A stretch of 64,000 bases of DNA from Cognatundibacterium crateris. GTDB lineage: Bacteria; Pseudomonadota; Gammaproteobacteria; Burkholderiales; Burkholderiaceae_D. Of this stretch, positions 4,407 through 38,391 are shown one piece after another. The translations under genes were made by a program, and so were the position numbers. Below the pieces are notes generated by a model, which ran no database searches, was not told where the DNA came from, and saw nothing but the letters and a program-made list of their open reading frames with translations. Each line of letters opens with the position of its first letter. The stretch's first letter is position 1. The stretch lies in assembly GCF_010078235.1 (NCBI RefSeq), contig NZ_JAABOS010000003.1:248001-312000 (forward strand), given 5' to 3'.

Positions 4407-5162
4407 ATGATCACAGCTATCATCGCCGACGACGAAGACTTACCCCGTAAAGACCTCAGACGCATGCTGCAGGAGCACTGGCCCGAGCTCAATATTGTCG
4501 CCGAGTGTGAACATGGTGCCGATGCACTGGAAGCGATTCATACCCATCATCCGGATATCGCGTTTCTCGACATTCGCATGCCTGGCATGACCGGGCTGGA
4601 TGTCGCCCATGCGACCAAAGGCAAATGCCACGCGGTGTTCACTACTGCCTATGATCAGTATGCGCTCGATGCGTTTGCAGCCGGTGCGATTGATTATCTG
4701 CTCAAACCTATCGCCGCACAGCGTCTGAACGAGGCCATCGCCCGGCTTAAGGAACGCATGAAAGCGGCCCAGCCAGCAGCGGATCTGACCCAGCTGATGT
4801 CAGAACTGGATAAGCGTATCCGCGGTAACCCGCCTGAACGCATACGCTGGATCAGTGCCAGTGTGGGCGATACCATAAAGATGTTCGCGGTCGATAAAAT
4901 TCTGTTTTTTACCTCCGATGAAAAATACACCCGGGTTGTGAGTCAGCAGGATGAGGCGCATGTACGCAAGCCGCTTAAAGAACTGATGGAAGGCTTAGAT
5001 CCTGACGTGTTCTGGCAAATCCATCGCGGCACAGTGGTCCGCGCTGATGCAATTGCCCGTGCCCACCGGGATGAAATGGGGCGCTATTCCGTGGAATTGC
5101 ATGGCAGTGCGGAGAAGCTGAAGGTGAGTCAGGCATATGCCTGGCGTTTCAAACCCATGTAG
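4407..5162 (+). CDS. LytTR-family response regulator (AlgR/LytR type)
   Basis: 251 aa. The receiver domain covers residues 1-118, with acidic pair Asp8/Asp9, phospho-acceptor Asp55 in IAFLDIRMPG and the conserved Lys in YLLKPI. After a short linker comes a LytTR DNA-binding domain (residues ~145-250), with the characteristic KILFFTSDEKYTRVV and FWQIHRGTVVRADAI segments. It is the expected partner of the upstream PF06580 kinase. LytTR regulators typically bind paired direct repeats upstream of targets; none was identified with confidence here. The gene ends 2 nt before a palindromic repeat element. Confidence 0.93.
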   Translation: MITAIIADDEDLPRKDLRRMLQEHWPELNIVAECEHGADALEAIHTHHPDIAFLDIRMPGMTGLDVAHATKGKCHAVFTTAYDQYALDAFAAGAIDYLLKPIAAQRLNEAIARLKERMKAAQPAADLTQLMSELDKRIRGNPPERIRWISASVGDTIKMFAVDKILFFTSDEKYTRVVSQQDEAHVRKPLKELMEGLDPDVFWQIHRGTVVRADAIARAHRDEMGRYSVELHGSAEKLKVSQAYAWRFKPM

Positions 5163-5164
5163 CA

Positions 5165-5266
5165 CGGACTGACGAAAAACCGCCCCTGCTGCGTTGTTGG
5201 CGTCTTGCCGTACTAAAGTACTGTCTGTGTCGCCACGCCTTGCCGGGACGGCTTTGCGTCAGTCCG
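5165..5266. repeat. Palindromic repeat element, copy A
   Basis: About 102 nt with perfect terminal inverted repeats CGGACTGACG / CGTCAGTCCG. The interior (GCGTnnTGGCnnCTTGCCGTAC ... GTACTGTCTGYGTCGCC, broken here by gaps) is shared with copies at 13933-14036 and 41204-41306. Its ends differ from the other copies in both arms at once, so pairing is preserved. It lies directly after the LytTR gene and could also work as a transcription end signal. Confidence 0.85.
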
Positions 5267-29324: not shown

Positions 29325-30608
29325 TCAGCCGTTTGGTTCATCCTCTTCGTAAAAGGGCGTGCCCTTCACACCCTGCATGTCAAGGTAGTAGTAGACGAAT
29401 AGGCACTTGGTCAGATGGTTCAGCCGGTGCGTCTCCCGGAACATGCCAAGGATCTTGCGACTGAAGTCCAGAAACTGAAGCTGGAACGATGTTGCTTGTT
29501 CGAGCCCTTCCTTCTTTGGATAGTACGTAATTACCTGAGTTACCTTGTCTGATTCGGCCTTGTAGTGAGCAATCGAGTTGCGCAGGCGATGGTCAATGTC
29601 GCTCGCGTCAATGTGATACCAGCAGTTGTCCAACTGGGCCAGCTTCAGGCCCAACGGCCAATCAGCAAACTCCTTAAGGCTCGATGGTGCATTTTTGGCG
29701 GGGGAGAACTTGTTATGATCGCCACGCCGATTCAGGTTGTTGAGCCCCGCAACAAGGACGACGGCACGGGACATAATTTCAGCGATGTCCTTGAACAGAT
29801 CTTTGACTTCGTCGAACTCGTGCGCAGACACGCGGTAGTAAGTGTTGCCGCCGTATGTTTCGTCAAAGTCCAAGAACAACGCCGGACGGAACATCAACTC
29901 GAGGTCAATGATCTTTGGATAAATCTCAAGGCAATCAAGCTGAAGATTCCTGAGAAATCCTGTATCGACAATCTCGTCCACAAATGCATTAAGCGCAGCC
30001 TTGTCACGCTTAGCAAGTCGCATTTGCAGCTTGGTGATGGTGGTCACAGCGTCAACATTCCTTTTCGGCTCGGCGAAAGGAAAGAACGCCTTCTCGATGG
30101 CCATATACAGCGCACGATTGATGTCAAGTTGGGTGTCGCAAGGGATCTTGCCGTCGAGGAACTCCCACACCTTCTCCTTGAACAGTTCGTGCTTTCCCTT
30201 CACGTACAGGGTGAACAGCGCCTTGATTTGAGGCGCCATTTCCTGCACATTGTTGAGCCAGTTCAGCCGCATGGCATGAATTTGCATATTCTGATCACCA
30301 ATGCGCTTCATCGCCATCATGAATGGCGTGTGCCCCATCATGTATTTGCCAAATGAAACGGGGAAGTCGAGATGCAGGTCAACGAAATGATCACCACCCT
30401 CGAAGGCGTTGCCGTCCACCATCTCAGCACCACCAACATCGATGTCACTCGTGACTTGCTTATGATCGAGTGTCACTGTGATGTCAATGGGAGCGCCGCA
30501 CCCTTGGCAGCGAAAGCGTATCGGCTGATGGGTACGATTTGACAATCCAACTCGGCAATGTGTCTTCGCGCTGCAGACGTCACATTTGACGTAGATGTTG
30601 TGATTCAT
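29325..30608 (-). CDS. Zinc-ribbon protein with HEPN-like C-terminal region, unknown function
   Basis: 427 aa, AGGAGG three bases before the ATG. The N-terminus is a zinc ribbon: Cys9-x2-Cys12 in VKCDVC and Cys34-x2-Cys37 in FRCQGC. The middle is all-helical, with no recognised motif. Near the C-terminus RLRNSIAHYK (Arg343 to His348) fits the HEPN R-x4-6-H motif with an Asn right after the Arg, inside helices of HEPN-like spacing. HEPN proteins are often RNases in toxin and anti-phage systems. The remainder of the protein does not resemble a family I know. First gene of the accessory island; stand-alone, divergent from nothing obvious. Confidence 0.6.
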   Translation of the reverse strand: MNHNIYVKCDVCSAKTHCRVGLSNRTHQPIRFRCQGCGAPIDITVTLDHKQVTSDIDVGGAEMVDGNAFEGGDHFVDLHLDFPVSFGKYMMGHTPFMMAMKRIGDQNMQIHAMRLNWLNNVQEMAPQIKALFTLYVKGKHELFKEKVWEFLDGKIPCDTQLDINRALYMAIEKAFFPFAEPKRNVDAVTTITKLQMRLAKRDKAALNAFVDEIVDTGFLRNLQLDCLEIYPKIIDLELMFRPALFLDFDETYGGNTYYRVSAHEFDEVKDLFKDIAEIMSRAVVLVAGLNNLNRRGDHNKFSPAKNAPSSLKEFADWPLGLKLAQLDNCWYHIDASDIDHRLRNSIAHYKAESDKVTQVITYYPKKEGLEQATSFQLQFLDFSRKILGMFRETHRLNHLTKCLFVYYYLDMQGVKGTPFYEEDEPNG

Positions 30609-31139: not shown

Positions 31140-31901
31140 TTACTGCTGTGGGTGACCGGGCGAGCGTCCTGCAACTACTTCGTAGACCTGCCATTCGGGA
31201 GCAAAGTCACGAAGATTCGTAGCTGCGTCAATCTGTTGCTCAAGTGGAACGAACAAACTCATTTCAAGTAGTTTTAGGTGAAATACATTTCCCTCGCCAA
31301 CATCCTCAATTGACAGTGATATTCCACTTTCCCATTCCGAGGGCGAGACGCCATTTTTAAAACGTAGAAAAAGACTTACGAAATCACAGGCGATCAGAAA
31401 CCACCAGCGACTATTCGGATGAGGGCTTCGAGCAAATTTCCGCGCAGCGTCATATCGTGGCAGGTGAGCTTCGTCAGAATTGTAAGCAAGCAGTTCAAGG
31501 CCCATCTTCAGTAGAAGCCGACAAACTGCCAGTGGCTCAACGGGCTCGGCAATGATCCGAACTTGAGTAATCTTATTGTTGAAAATGCCCTGCTCGACGC
31601 TGTCCGAGAGTGGATCTAACCCCAGGTACCCAGGTAAGTGACTAGACCTTAATGTACCAATAGCCGCCTTCATGAAAGGCGCCTTCTTGTGCTTAGTTGG
31701 GATTCCAAGCAGCAGTCGAAACGGAAGAAAGGGGTAACTGCTTAAAGCTTTGGATTCCACTTTGGAGCCAAAATATTGATTGCATGTGGCACAGACTAGA
31801 CCATTGGACATGCAAGCCCAATCGCTGCCACCCAACGATTCAGGGAGGATATGCTCAATACGAGACTCTTCAACAAGCTGCTTGCAAAAAACACACGTCA
31901 T
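31140..31901 (-). CDS. HNH endonuclease
   Basis: 253 aa from the ATG at 31901; the frame stays open for a further 50 codons upstream but that part has no family features. The N-terminus carries the nuclease: zinc pair Cys3-x2-Cys6 (TCVFCKQ), the HNH core RIEHILPESLGG with His17, and the second pair Cys37-x2-Cys40 (LVCATCNQ) followed by Asn41. About 200 further residues with no known domain might bind DNA or a partner. Such stand-alone nucleases are common in defence islands but also domesticated. AT-rich compared with the flanking core genes. Confidence 0.8.
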   Translation of the reverse strand: MTCVFCKQLVEESRIEHILPESLGGSDWACMSNGLVCATCNQYFGSKVESKALSSYPFLPFRLLLGIPTKHKKAPFMKAAIGTLRSSHLPGYLGLDPLSDSVEQGIFNNKITQVRIIAEPVEPLAVCRLLLKMGLELLAYNSDEAHLPRYDAARKFARSPHPNSRWWFLIACDFVSLFLRFKNGVSPSEWESGISLSIEDVGEGNVFHLKLLEMSLFVPLEQQIDAATNLRDFAPEWQVYEVVAGRSPGHPQQ

Positions 31902-32175: not shown

Positions 32176-32673
32176 CTAATACGCACCGTGTACATGCTCA
32201 AAAAGCCGAGTAGTAAGATCGTACTTTTTGCGAAAGCGCTGGGTCGAATCAGTAAATGTATCGAATAAAGGATGTTCTTCTTTTAGGCGAATAAAGAATT
32301 GGGGTGGGTTGAACCCTTCTGCAATGTCGCGAAGTGAATCTAGAGAAAACGGGCGGCTTAAAATTTTCGCATCGTCAAGTTCCAGTACTACCCCCTCTTC
32401 TAAGCCGTCAAGGTATTTCAGAAATTCGCCCCGAACTAAGCCAGAGACTGAACCAAATTGTCGCCAGAGTGCATTCGGCGAGGCTTTGTGAATAGCTTTG
32501 ATTTTCGCACGGCCAATGATTGATCCTACAGGTAATGTTACGTATATCCATACGATAGTTCCTGGCGCAACATTCATAGATCGCCGTCGAAGTTCGATTT
32601 TTTTTCGTCCTGCAAAAATATTTTCTGCATGCCGTGGTGCCAGTGATATCAAAATGTGTTCTTGGTTATTCAC
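32176..32673 (-). CDS. ASCH-domain protein
   Basis: 165 aa. Residues ~5-110 are an ASCH (PUA-like) domain: ILISLAPRHAENIFAGRKKIELRR is the typical strand-helix-strand entry with the invariant basic Lys-Lys-x-E-x-R, then GTIVWIYVTLPVGSIIGRAKI, the second beta strand pair. ASCH domains bind RNA or nucleosides; E. coli YqfB is an amidohydrolase of N4-acetylcytidine. Its start codon overlaps the stop codon of the gene before it as ATGA, so the two are translated together. It is the small, downstream member of the pair. Confidence 0.85.
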   Translation of the reverse strand: MNNQEHILISLAPRHAENIFAGRKKIELRRRSMNVAPGTIVWIYVTLPVGSIIGRAKIKAIHKASPNALWRQFGSVSGLVRGEFLKYLDGLEEGVVLELDDAKILSRPFSLDSLRDIAEGFNPPQFFIRLKEEHPLFDTFTDSTQRFRKKYDLTTRLFEHVHGAY

Positions 32674-34904
32674 GTATCAAAACCTTCTGCCAAAATTTTT
32701 TGTAATTGCTCGTCTGTAAGCGGGCGTGTCGTGATTAATTGATTGGGTTCTCCACAGCCCATACGCCGTAGAGCCTCTAAAGGAACAGGATTCTTTAGAT
32801 AAAAAATATTATCAAATACGGTTACAGTTTTCATTTTTGACTTACCAATACTAACTAAATTCTCTGGCGTGAACACGGAATGTTCGAGATCGCTCGCATC
32901 GGCATCAATAGGTCTAAGGTATGCTTCTCTGACTCGTGCAATCGCAATTACTGCAGCACGTCCATGATTTCTTGTTGACTCGTAAAAAAGTATCAATGTC
33001 CCTTTTTTAAAGTGACGCAATGTCTTTGGGTCACTCAGGTAGTGTCGATCATGGTACAGCGATGCAGTCGAGCGTGGAAGCAAAGAGCCTTGTGGAGAAT
33101 TTCCCAGTAATTCAGCAGCGAAATTGCTTAAAATTGGTGTTAAGACTGATGGTCTTCCAGGCAAACAAAAAAGCGCAGGTGACAGGAGTGTTTCAAGATC
33201 ATCCAGCGTTACATGCCTTTGATTTCCATTGGACGTAAATATCTGTATTTGTTGATCAGCACTTCTAAATGTCGGTATCGATACCGGCAATTTTACGCTT
33301 CCTATTGCCTCTAAATTAGTTTGGCCTGCCTTCCAGTTTTTTTCTGTTAAAACATCTCCAAGGGCGAGTTTCATTAAACAATGCTGATCTGATGTTCCGG
33401 AAAATCCAAAGGCAGCGGATAATTCTCTTACATGCGATTGGTTTGGTGGAAGCTCGAGTTTGATATTCTGTGATCCTTGGTCGGCATTATTTTCTAAAAA
33501 ATACATTAGAAGAATTCTCGTGGCGCTGAGTGCTTGAGAGTTCGTCTCGTCAATCGCAATTCTGACTGTCATTGCACCAACTCCACCCTTTGCTGCCCAA
33601 GTAGCATATCCAATGAGGGTTGTACTATTCCAAACAGCACAGCATTTCGCTATACGGCCATGGGGGTCAATTGGCAGCCAGCCACCTGCAATAGATGAGC
33701 CAGAAAGTCCTATTTTTCTAAGAAATGCTCGAATGGTCGATTCATCCTCATTCGTCACTTCAAGTAAATTTAACGTACCATTCTCCCTTGCATCAAACGT
33801 AGTATTTACAGCAGTATCTGAATCTTCAAGTTTGAAAGCTGAGGGGGAAACAATCTCTATTCCATATTTGATCTTGATAACCGACGCTGCTGCAAGAATC
33901 GCTTTATCGTTGGTAATGAGGCCTGCAAGGTTGTGCTGAATTGCGGTAGCCACGTGACGCAGATCGGAAAAGTCGTTTGCACTCAATAGTCCGCTTACCT
34001 TTCTAGTTGGGAAAATGAGTGTGGCTAAATGTTCGAGAATATGTTGAGTTTCATTTCCTTCGTGCAATGGAAATGACGGGTAGATACTGATGTACGCTTC
34101 CATCGGATCAGTACGTCCAGGTTGTGCGTTTCTCTGAAGCTCTTCACGAATCTCTGTGCTTATAGCCAGCCGGCAAAAATTGGAACGCTCGGCCTGAAAT
34201 AAGCTGGCAGCATCTGCATGTCTCAATCTTCGAGGACCAATATCGAATAACACATTTAAATCTAATAGAAATAGTGGCGAAATATTTGACGGGGAATTTA
34301 CAAGATCAAGAGGGTTTTGAGCATCGAATCCACTTGTTGGGAAAAGCTGTGGGGATGCCAACTCGTGGCAGCGAACGAGAATTTTTCTGTTTCGTGTCGC
34401 TCCTCCTTGAGCAACACGCTGAACGTAAAATTCTTGCTTATGCCAAAATTCGTTTGATGTGCTTAAGTCCTCAGCTACACGTGCATAGATTGAAATAAAT
34501 CCGTGATGAGTTAATAGTGTTTTGAAATGTTCGACTAATTTAGCAGCTAGTCCTTGACGTCGAAATTCCGGAAGTATCAGCATTTGCATTACATGTGCGC
34601 GAGGGAATTGTGGGCGAAAAAGTAGATGCCCCACATAATGCATGCCAGAATCAGATTTTGTAATAATGATAAAAAGACGATCGCGTTGCGCAAAATCTTC
34701 AAATACACTCGCCGGGAAAAAACCGAGGGCATTTCGATGCTTATCTGCAGCCTGGACGACTTGCGACAAAAAAGGCGATACGTCGCGGTATCTTTCCAGT
34801 ATTTCAAATGGTGGATCCGACACGTTTCCCAAGCTGGACGCAGAGTGGGAGTCAATGGAAGGCAAATTTGGCGCATTAAACTGATCGGTTGCTTCAATTT
34901 TCAT
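32670..34904 (-). CDS. GNAT-PIN-GNAT-PUA-like multidomain fusion protein
   Basis: 744 aa from the ATG at 34904; an in-frame TTG five codons earlier is the alternative. Residues ~25-180 form a GNAT domain with the acetyl-CoA loop LPEFRRQGLAAKL (RRQGLA at 115-120). Residues ~208-357 form a PIN nuclease: Asp215 in LLDLNVLFD, Glu251 in STEIREEL, Asp314 in DLRHVATA and Asp333 in LITNDKAIL, i.e. the full acidic set. Residues ~370-535 look like a second GNAT whose CoA loop is worn. Residues ~560-744 include FKKGTLILFYEST and AVIAIARVREAYL, resembling a PUA/EVE/ASCH fold. The downstream ASCH gene overlaps by ATGA. AT-rich, next to gyrB. Domain order is seen; activity is inferred. Confidence 0.78.
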   Translation of the reverse strand: MKIEATDQFNAPNLPSIDSHSASSLGNVSDPPFEILERYRDVSPFLSQVVQAADKHRNALGFFPASVFEDFAQRDRLFIIITKSDSGMHYVGHLLFRPQFPRAHVMQMLILPEFRRQGLAAKLVEHFKTLLTHHGFISIYARVAEDLSTSNEFWHKQEFYVQRVAQGGATRNRKILVRCHELASPQLFPTSGFDAQNPLDLVNSPSNISPLFLLDLNVLFDIGPRRLRHADAASLFQAERSNFCRLAISTEIREELQRNAQPGRTDPMEAYISIYPSFPLHEGNETQHILEHLATLIFPTRKVSGLLSANDFSDLRHVATAIQHNLAGLITNDKAILAAASVIKIKYGIEIVSPSAFKLEDSDTAVNTTFDARENGTLNLLEVTNEDESTIRAFLRKIGLSGSSIAGGWLPIDPHGRIAKCCAVWNSTTLIGYATWAAKGGVGAMTVRIAIDETNSQALSATRILLMYFLENNADQGSQNIKLELPPNQSHVRELSAAFGFSGTSDQHCLMKLALGDVLTEKNWKAGQTNLEAIGSVKLPVSIPTFRSADQQIQIFTSNGNQRHVTLDDLETLLSPALFCLPGRPSVLTPILSNFAAELLGNSPQGSLLPRSTASLYHDRHYLSDPKTLRHFKKGTLILFYESTRNHGRAAVIAIARVREAYLRPIDADASDLEHSVFTPENLVSIGKSKMKTVTVFDNIFYLKNPVPLEALRRMGCGEPNQLITTRPLTDEQLQKILAEGFDT

Positions 34905-35584: not shown

Positions 35585-38391
<2,807 letters not shown>

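Follow-up and report, generated by a model that had tools for sequence, protein, structure and literature searches.

Two overlapping genes on the minus strand of a 64,000-nucleotide stretch of the Cognatundibacterium crateris genome (here called the window; NCBI RefSeq assembly GCF_010078235.1, contig NZ_JAABOS010000003.1, positions 248,001 to 312,000) are the subject of this analysis. Gene A (32670..34904) encodes a fusion of GNAT, PIN, GNAT and EVE domains of 744 amino acids (aa), and the gene downstream (32176..32673) encodes an ASCH protein of 165 aa. Based on sequence comparison, the two genes are a real, conserved and mobile unit. The unit belongs, as a long form, to the predicted operons of the (PIN)-GNAT-EVE + ASCH type, which correspond to the PADLOC candidate PDC-M11. 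It is best read as a mobile, horizontally acquired conflict module of this kind in a four-domain form, probably directed against phages or other elements; the probability of this reading is estimated at about 0.5. It is based on the maintained order and overlap of the pair, the in-step divergence of the two proteins, their sporadic distribution, their variable and mobile places, and the complete PIN active site.

Conservation and Distribution of the Gene Pair

A genome scan seeded with ASCH detected 29 loci, and in 26 of them a full-length gene A is directly upstream of the ASCH gene. An ASCH gene also adjoins gene A in all seven places found with gene A as the seed (the own genome, G032, which is assigned to the same genus, G418, G697, G491, a Caulobacter plasmid, and a Prevotella record). 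The initial annotation of this locus had proposed a search for the same pair in other genomes as a check, and these counts bear the pair out. Gene A and the ASCH gene overlap by 1 to 35 bases in all 29 pairs examined, the nearest start having been chosen, which favours overlap. In the window, the overlap is four bases, GTGA, which includes the stop codon TGA and the start codon GTG; the overlap had been annotated as ATGA, and its length stands while its bases do not.

Pairwise distances of the gene A and ASCH proteins, compared for 26 pairs, are strongly correlated (r = 0.93), a value higher than in any of 2000 permutations. According to record titles, the pair occurs in three phyla, with hosts among the Beta-, Alpha- and Gammaproteobacteria, the Acidobacteriota and the Bacteroidota. 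The pair is rare. Counting the own genome each time, it is present in 2 of the 60 relatives examined, in 2 of 399 genomes from the order and in 3 of 398 from the phylum. The direct query with P0001 found no match in the genome contig collection, the profile A1 found none in viral contigs, and no DNA match was found in E. coli genomes.

Domain Organization of Gene A

Counted from ATG, gene A is a single open frame of 744 aa; an upstream TTG would extend it to 749 aa. The true start may be the GTG at 34823, because most relatives begin near residues 29–33. Related frames are available from 29 loci (28 with both ends, and L044 with its start cut off), and no stop is found inside the matched stretch of any of them. 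Because relatives exist and these 29 frames lack internal stops, it is very unlikely that the frame is open by chance.

The four parts initially annotated in this frame (GNAT, PIN, a second GNAT-like part, and a PUA/EVE-like part) were all recovered with Pfam or profile matches, the inner GNAT weakly. Pfam Acetyltransf_1 matches aa 68–159 above its cut-off (E 7e-9), while PIN_3 at aa 213–335 (E 7.5e-5) and EVE at aa 627–738 (E 0.0013) are below theirs. Family-wide, at E ≤ 0.01, the 28 rows are matched by Acetyltransf_1 in 28, PIN_3 in 19, and EVE in 11 cases. One PADLOC PDC-M11A model matches 24 of these 28 rows.

In the PIN domain (about aa 210–345; 33870..34277), all 29 rows agree at Asp215, Asn217, Glu251, Glu255, Asp311 and Asp314. 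Position 333 is always acidic, with Asp in 19 rows and Glu in the other 10. The three to four conserved acidic active-site residues of a PIN RNase are therefore seen in the gene A family, and the set first annotated (Asp215, Glu251, Asp314, and Asp333) corresponds to them, with Glu in place of Asp at the last position in those 10 rows. In the EVE/PUA-like domain (about aa 585–744; 32673..33152), Tyr641 is invariant in 28 of 28 rows. Profile comparison indicates that this domain and the ASCH partner are related (probability 95%, E 7e-8).

The first GNAT domain, GNAT1 (about aa 40–185; 34350..34787), keeps the acetyl-coenzyme A (acetyl-CoA) loop. Its sequence in the window protein is RRQGLA, which fits the pyrophosphate-loop pattern [QR]xxGx[GA] and agrees with the intact loop described earlier. 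The strict pattern is in register in 16 of 28 rows. Column 115 is R in 28 and K in 1 of 29 rows, and column 120 is A, G or S in all 29. Among the best 60 of 128 matches of the GNAT1 profile (28 rows) in PDB, the best is an ARD1-type N-terminal acetyltransferase (E 1.9e-6), and RimI proteins are in the top six.

The inner domain, GNAT2 (about aa 375–512; 33369..33782), is degenerate and has no Pfam match of its own. Its profile (27 rows) matches ten PDB sequences up to E 5, the best with E 0.04. By name, six of them are acetyltransferases, two are hypothetical TTHA1254 and one is a transcriptional regulator; the tenth is an S18-modifying enzyme, which we take to be RimI. It is likely, though weakly supported, that this domain is a second GNAT. 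Neither [QR]xxGx[GA] nor the loop GxK[LIMV][GAS] of classical systems is present in any of the 28 rows, and the aligned columns lack such glycines. GNAT1 and GNAT2 are matched to each other by profile with a probability of only 5%. The simplest reading would be that catalysis or acetyl-CoA binding has passed from the inner GNAT to the added N-terminal GNAT.

The ASCH Partner

The ASCH protein of the window matches Pfam ASCH just above the cut-off (E 2.8e-4). No further Pfam match is seen in its 165 aa up to E 1, and no DNA-binding domain is seen. Its profile is homologous to ZmASCH of Zymomonas mobilis over the domain (E 9e-33). ZmASCH binds nucleic acids and cleaves single-stranded RNA with Mg (Kim 2017, PMC5615036; PDB 5guq, 5gus, 5y6b, and 5y6c). 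The RNA-cleft residues Arg32, Tyr47, Tyr90 and Gln127 of ZmASCH are identical in all 28 ASCH rows, and Lys117 corresponds to Arg in all 28. Of the three residues that were mutated with respect to binding or cleavage (Tyr47, Lys53, and Ser128; PMC5615036), only Tyr47 is kept, in 28 of 28 rows. Because the cleft residues match while Lys53 and Ser128 do not, RNA binding by the partner is likely and RNase activity possible.

The initial annotation had pointed to YqfB, which hydrolyses N4-acetylcytidine (ac4C). The YqfB-type amidohydrolases (PMC6972931) share with the partner the ASCH domain and a motif of Lys and Arg at equal spacing. By this motif spacing, however, the nucleophile Thr24 of YqfB corresponds to Glu27, which is invariant in 30 ASCH rows, so that the Lys-Thr-Glu triad is broken. 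The comparison with the YqfB-type structure 1te7 is not significant either (E 0.79). YqfB-like ac4C deacetylation by the partner was thus rejected.

A 2026 preprint compares the barrel of the anti-phage glycosylase BapA with ZmASCH (PMC13160076). This likeness supports ASCH-like folds as parts of defence.

Relation to the Classical Systems

The (PIN)-GNAT-EVE class and its ASCH partner were described by Bell, Wolf and Koonin in 2020 (PMC7641849), crediting Iyer et al. 2013. Since the unit in the window is a long form of this class by domain order and profile, it is not an undescribed system, and the initial statement that no system of this order had been described does not hold. There, the class is linked to type I restriction-modification (R-M) systems and CRISPR, and GNAT-EVE is located in prophages (PMC7641849). 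PADLOC lists PDC-M11 as a candidate only. In the open-licence literature, supplements excluded, no mention was found of a four-domain form with an extra N-terminal GNAT; the name PDC-M11 was not found in the open-licence literature searched.

The domain order of PDC-M11, an EVE-like domain C-terminal to a GNAT-like domain with PIN before it, is seen in gene A, and an ASCH protein is encoded in the same operon. Gene A matches PDC-M11A with E 3e-10 (the matched models are 357–501 positions long), and the ASCH protein matches PDC-M11B with E 4e-27. When 398 genomes of the phylum were searched with the PDC-M11A model, 54 were matched at E 0.001; seven of the matches are below 1e-30, and most are short. 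A classical profile was built from seven proteins (L034–L040), of which four are PIN-GNAT-EVE and three are GNAT-EVE. The long-form profile (28 rows) is colinear with it over residues 212–744 (hhalign E 1.8e-21). GNAT1 is outside this alignment, and its second-best alignment, to the classical GNAT, has a probability of 8%.

Both forms share the order PIN, GNAT, EVE, an adjoining ASCH gene, a sporadic distribution, and some defence neighbours. The long form differs in its extra N-terminal GNAT (about 190 aa) and in its inner GNAT, which lacks the acetyl-CoA loop. All seven classical proteins contain the GNAT loop GxK[LIM]G (without the leading Arg in L037, L038, and L039), while it is found in none of the 28 inner GNATs of the long form. 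This loop as a mark of the class is an observation on seven proteins, outside the published definition as far as seen. Furthermore, unlike some classical systems, the window ASCH protein has no helix-turn-helix (HTH), and no AAA_17 kinase is found among the scanned neighbours. The ASCH gene comes after gene A in the 29 long-form pairs, whereas an HTH-ASCH gene comes first in some classical loci: L036 (by eye), and a Rhizobium and an Azospirillum plasmid (by annotation and profile). Another classical locus, L034, has a P-loop kinase-like domain joined to ASCH (by eye).

These features bear on whether the pair is an ordinary type II toxin-antitoxin system, in which the fusion, through PIN and/or GNAT, would be the toxin, and ASCH would bind it and keep it inactive as its antitoxin. 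The initial annotation had considered a toxin with its control partner, and in Bell 2020 the classical form is treated as a predicted toxin-antitoxin system (PMC7641849). Two overlapping genes, in-step divergence, sporadic occurrence and mobility are in accordance with it, PIN and GNAT are common toxin folds, and the HTH on the ASCH gene of some classical systems (L036, by eye) would suit an antitoxin. The window ASCH protein lacks such an HTH, however; a DNA-binding domain is common in antitoxins but not obligatory. In the classical locus L035 (1234–3150, plus strand), both halves are naturally fused as PIN-GNAT-EVE-ASCH in one frame of 638 aa. This one-chain fusion speaks for a joint action of the gene A and ASCH halves and, for that reason, for an ASCH that works with the fusion rather than merely silencing it. 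In addition, the ASCH relative ZmASCH cuts RNA (PMC5615036), and three of the 29 ASCH loci (L006, L029, and L030) lack gene A within the DNA stretches examined. The toxin-antitoxin explanation is weakened by these facts and looks doubtful. The known GNAT toxins with DUF1778 antitoxins (PMC9177977) share a GNAT within a two-gene unit. Here the partner is an ASCH protein instead, and among the best 60 of 128 PDB matches GNAT1 is closest to the ARD1 type, with RimI in the top six.

Genomic Setting

The pair is directly downstream of gyrB (35585–38083), beyond which are genes read by eye as dnaN and dnaA. The two-gene locus is compact, about 2.7 kb. The G+C content of the island at 29.3–35.6 kb is 44.1%, compared with 54.1% in the rest of the window, and that of gene A is 43.1%. 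From 18 relatives, about 12 kb following gyrB was extracted and aligned to the window at E 1e-10. The end of gyrB was aligned in 17 of them, the exception being L108, in which little of gyrB is included. Some of the stretches align again at 20.0–21.9 kb, and none of the 18 aligns anywhere between 21.9 and 35.5 kb. This includes G001, whose GyrB sequence shows full identity within rounding. The absence of any alignment between 21.9 and 35.5 kb indicates that the stretch around the pair is variable and was acquired.

The content of this post-gyrB stretch varies across Undibacterium genomes (L094–L111), and it is a possible integration hotspot. It also contains an efflux set that is HlyD/FUSC/TolC-like by eye. 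Scans for promoters and terminators gave no more hits than shuffled sequence did.

Two more proteins are encoded on the minus strand near the pair. A 427-aa protein (29325–30608) at the edge of the low-G+C island has an N-terminal zinc-ribbon-like stretch (Cys_rich_CPXG, below cut-off) and no PADLOC match up to E 1. An HNH_5 endonuclease-like protein of 253 aa from ATG (31140..31901) is an occasional third neighbour outside the conserved core. HNH_5 was considered as a fixed third component and rejected: of 32 long-type loci outside viral contigs, six have it next to the pair, and none of the six viral ones does. The six with it are the window, L033, L044, L115, and the incomplete L025 (at a contig edge) and L032 (truncated); five of them built the model. 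Scans seeded with HNH found 2 hits in 299 genomes, both beside such systems (both were seeds); 7 in plasmid records, 3 of them beside such systems (one a seed, two classical); and 7 viral loci, none beside such systems. Members of the same family also adjoin classical loci on plasmids of Rhizobium and Azospirillum. HNH_5 is thus a recurrent neighbour and not a core part.

Neighbours in Other Genomes

A total of 242 frames around 26 loci were compared with PADLOC, and the counts of placed matches are minimum counts. At least 6 of the 26 loci have a defence match within 7 kb: IetA and IetS in L005; JetA, JetB, JetC and JetD in L008; a type IIG R-M system in L022; PDC-M72A in L025; PDC-S26 and PDC-S28 in L026; and RmrA in L033. 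In L008, JetA, JetB and JetC are before the pair and JetD is after it, and since jetC precedes and jetD follows, the pair is inside a Wadjet operon. A CBASS-type cyclase and an effector were also matched among the neighbour frames and are not assigned to a locus. The three frames closest downstream, compared across the 26 loci, include no fixed further neighbour gene. In L008 (5–9488), a RhuM-like gene is next and a zeta-toxin-like kinase is further on, both placed by eye.

IMG/VR viral contigs contain 17 ASCH loci, of which 6 are long form, 7 are classical, and 4 are neither; among the classical ones, L131–L133 look like near copies and L136 is split in two frames. Such locations suggest another explanation, in which the pair would be an element-borne gene for counter-defence or competition. 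Prophages or transposons would then protect themselves with it, and not the host, for example via modified or acetylated tRNA. A role of this type is proposed for GNAT-EVE without PIN in Bell 2020 (PMC7641849). In accordance with it, phage tail genes are within 5 kb of the pair in the viral loci L125 and L128, and portal, terminase and major head genes are near it in L127. The tail genes are presumably P2-like. Tni-type transposition genes are just downstream of the pair in L005 (7664–12229, minus strand), and a tyrosine-recombinase-like gene is upstream; the basis is one TniB match in its neighbour batch, with the placement, TniQ and the recombinase read by eye. Many long-type loci have no evident prophage gene nearby, however, and P0001 as a direct query has no match in the phage collection. 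Location does not separate an element-borne role from host defence, because prophages also carry ordinary defence genes. Considering both sides, the element-borne explanation is unlikely.

In L128, a second, divergent ASCH gene (4812–5186, minus strand) faces the pair on the viral contig with phage tail genes.

Proposed Function of the Unit

An RNA-directed role of the unit is reasonable on the basis of its domains. A role outside conflict could also be considered, in which the pair would encode a cellular enzyme of RNA modification or RNA turnover. Enzymes linked to translation commonly contain PUA-like and RimI-like domains. The authors of the ZmASCH study propose a role in the control of RNA amount (PMC5615036). 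Against such an enzyme, the pair is sparse even near the genus (2 of 60 relatives), its location is variable, and it has a low-G+C island and mobile neighbours. A cellular enzyme of this kind is quite improbable.

The preferred explanation is still the conflict module, and the best reading of its action is that the unit works as one RNA-targeting complex rather than as an ordinary toxin-antitoxin pair. The mechanism proposed here is drawn from anatomy and homology. The gene A and ASCH proteins would act as a single complex, with EVE and ASCH as the two PUA-like domains that recognise nucleic acid, possibly modified and most likely RNA. GNAT1 would bind acetyl-CoA, and either acetylate the target or sense acetyl-CoA. 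PIN would be the effector that cuts RNA, and GNAT2 would now be a scaffold. The outcome on infection could be local RNA degradation or growth arrest.

It can be speculated further that the unit is a nucleic-acid surveillance enzyme. EVE and ASCH would be the readers, with ASCH perhaps cutting RNA itself, and would steer the acetyltransferase and the PIN RNase to one modified invader RNA. As acetyl transfer would have moved from the decayed inner GNAT to the added N-terminal one, marking and cutting would be coupled in one chain, and no antitoxin would be needed. This more specific proposal is tentative.

Several facts weigh against the conflict module. In the partner, the ZmASCH residue Lys53 corresponds to Gly or Ala and Ser128 to Phe, each being kept in 0 of 28 rows. 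Only 17 of 29 GNAT1 domains have Gly as the fourth residue of the loop. At the position of the GNAT general acid, 23 of the 29 have Trp and 6 have Tyr, and for this reason acetyl transfer by GNAT1 is unproved. The matching distances of gene A and ASCH are also expected from shared descent alone. The count of defence neighbours has no matched control to set it against, and many of the surrounding genes look like ordinary chromosomal ones. The PDC-M11A model, which detects the gene A protein when compared with it directly (E 1.6e-8), missed the own genome in the search of the 398 genomes. According to Bell 2020 (PMC7641849), no module of this class had been characterised, and no later test of the class was found in the open-licence literature, supplements excluded. 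Two other PADLOC candidates, PDC-M63AB and PDC-S04, were reportedly tested and no defence was found (PMC12409345).

The (PIN)-GNAT-EVE/ASCH systems are a predicted class, and the long form offers concrete handles on it: the GNAT that can be active, a solved RNase homologue of the partner, the invariant residues of the PIN, EVE-like and ASCH domains, and a clonable locus. The fusion of the L035 type changes how the class should be tested, as the partner would be expected to work with the fusion.

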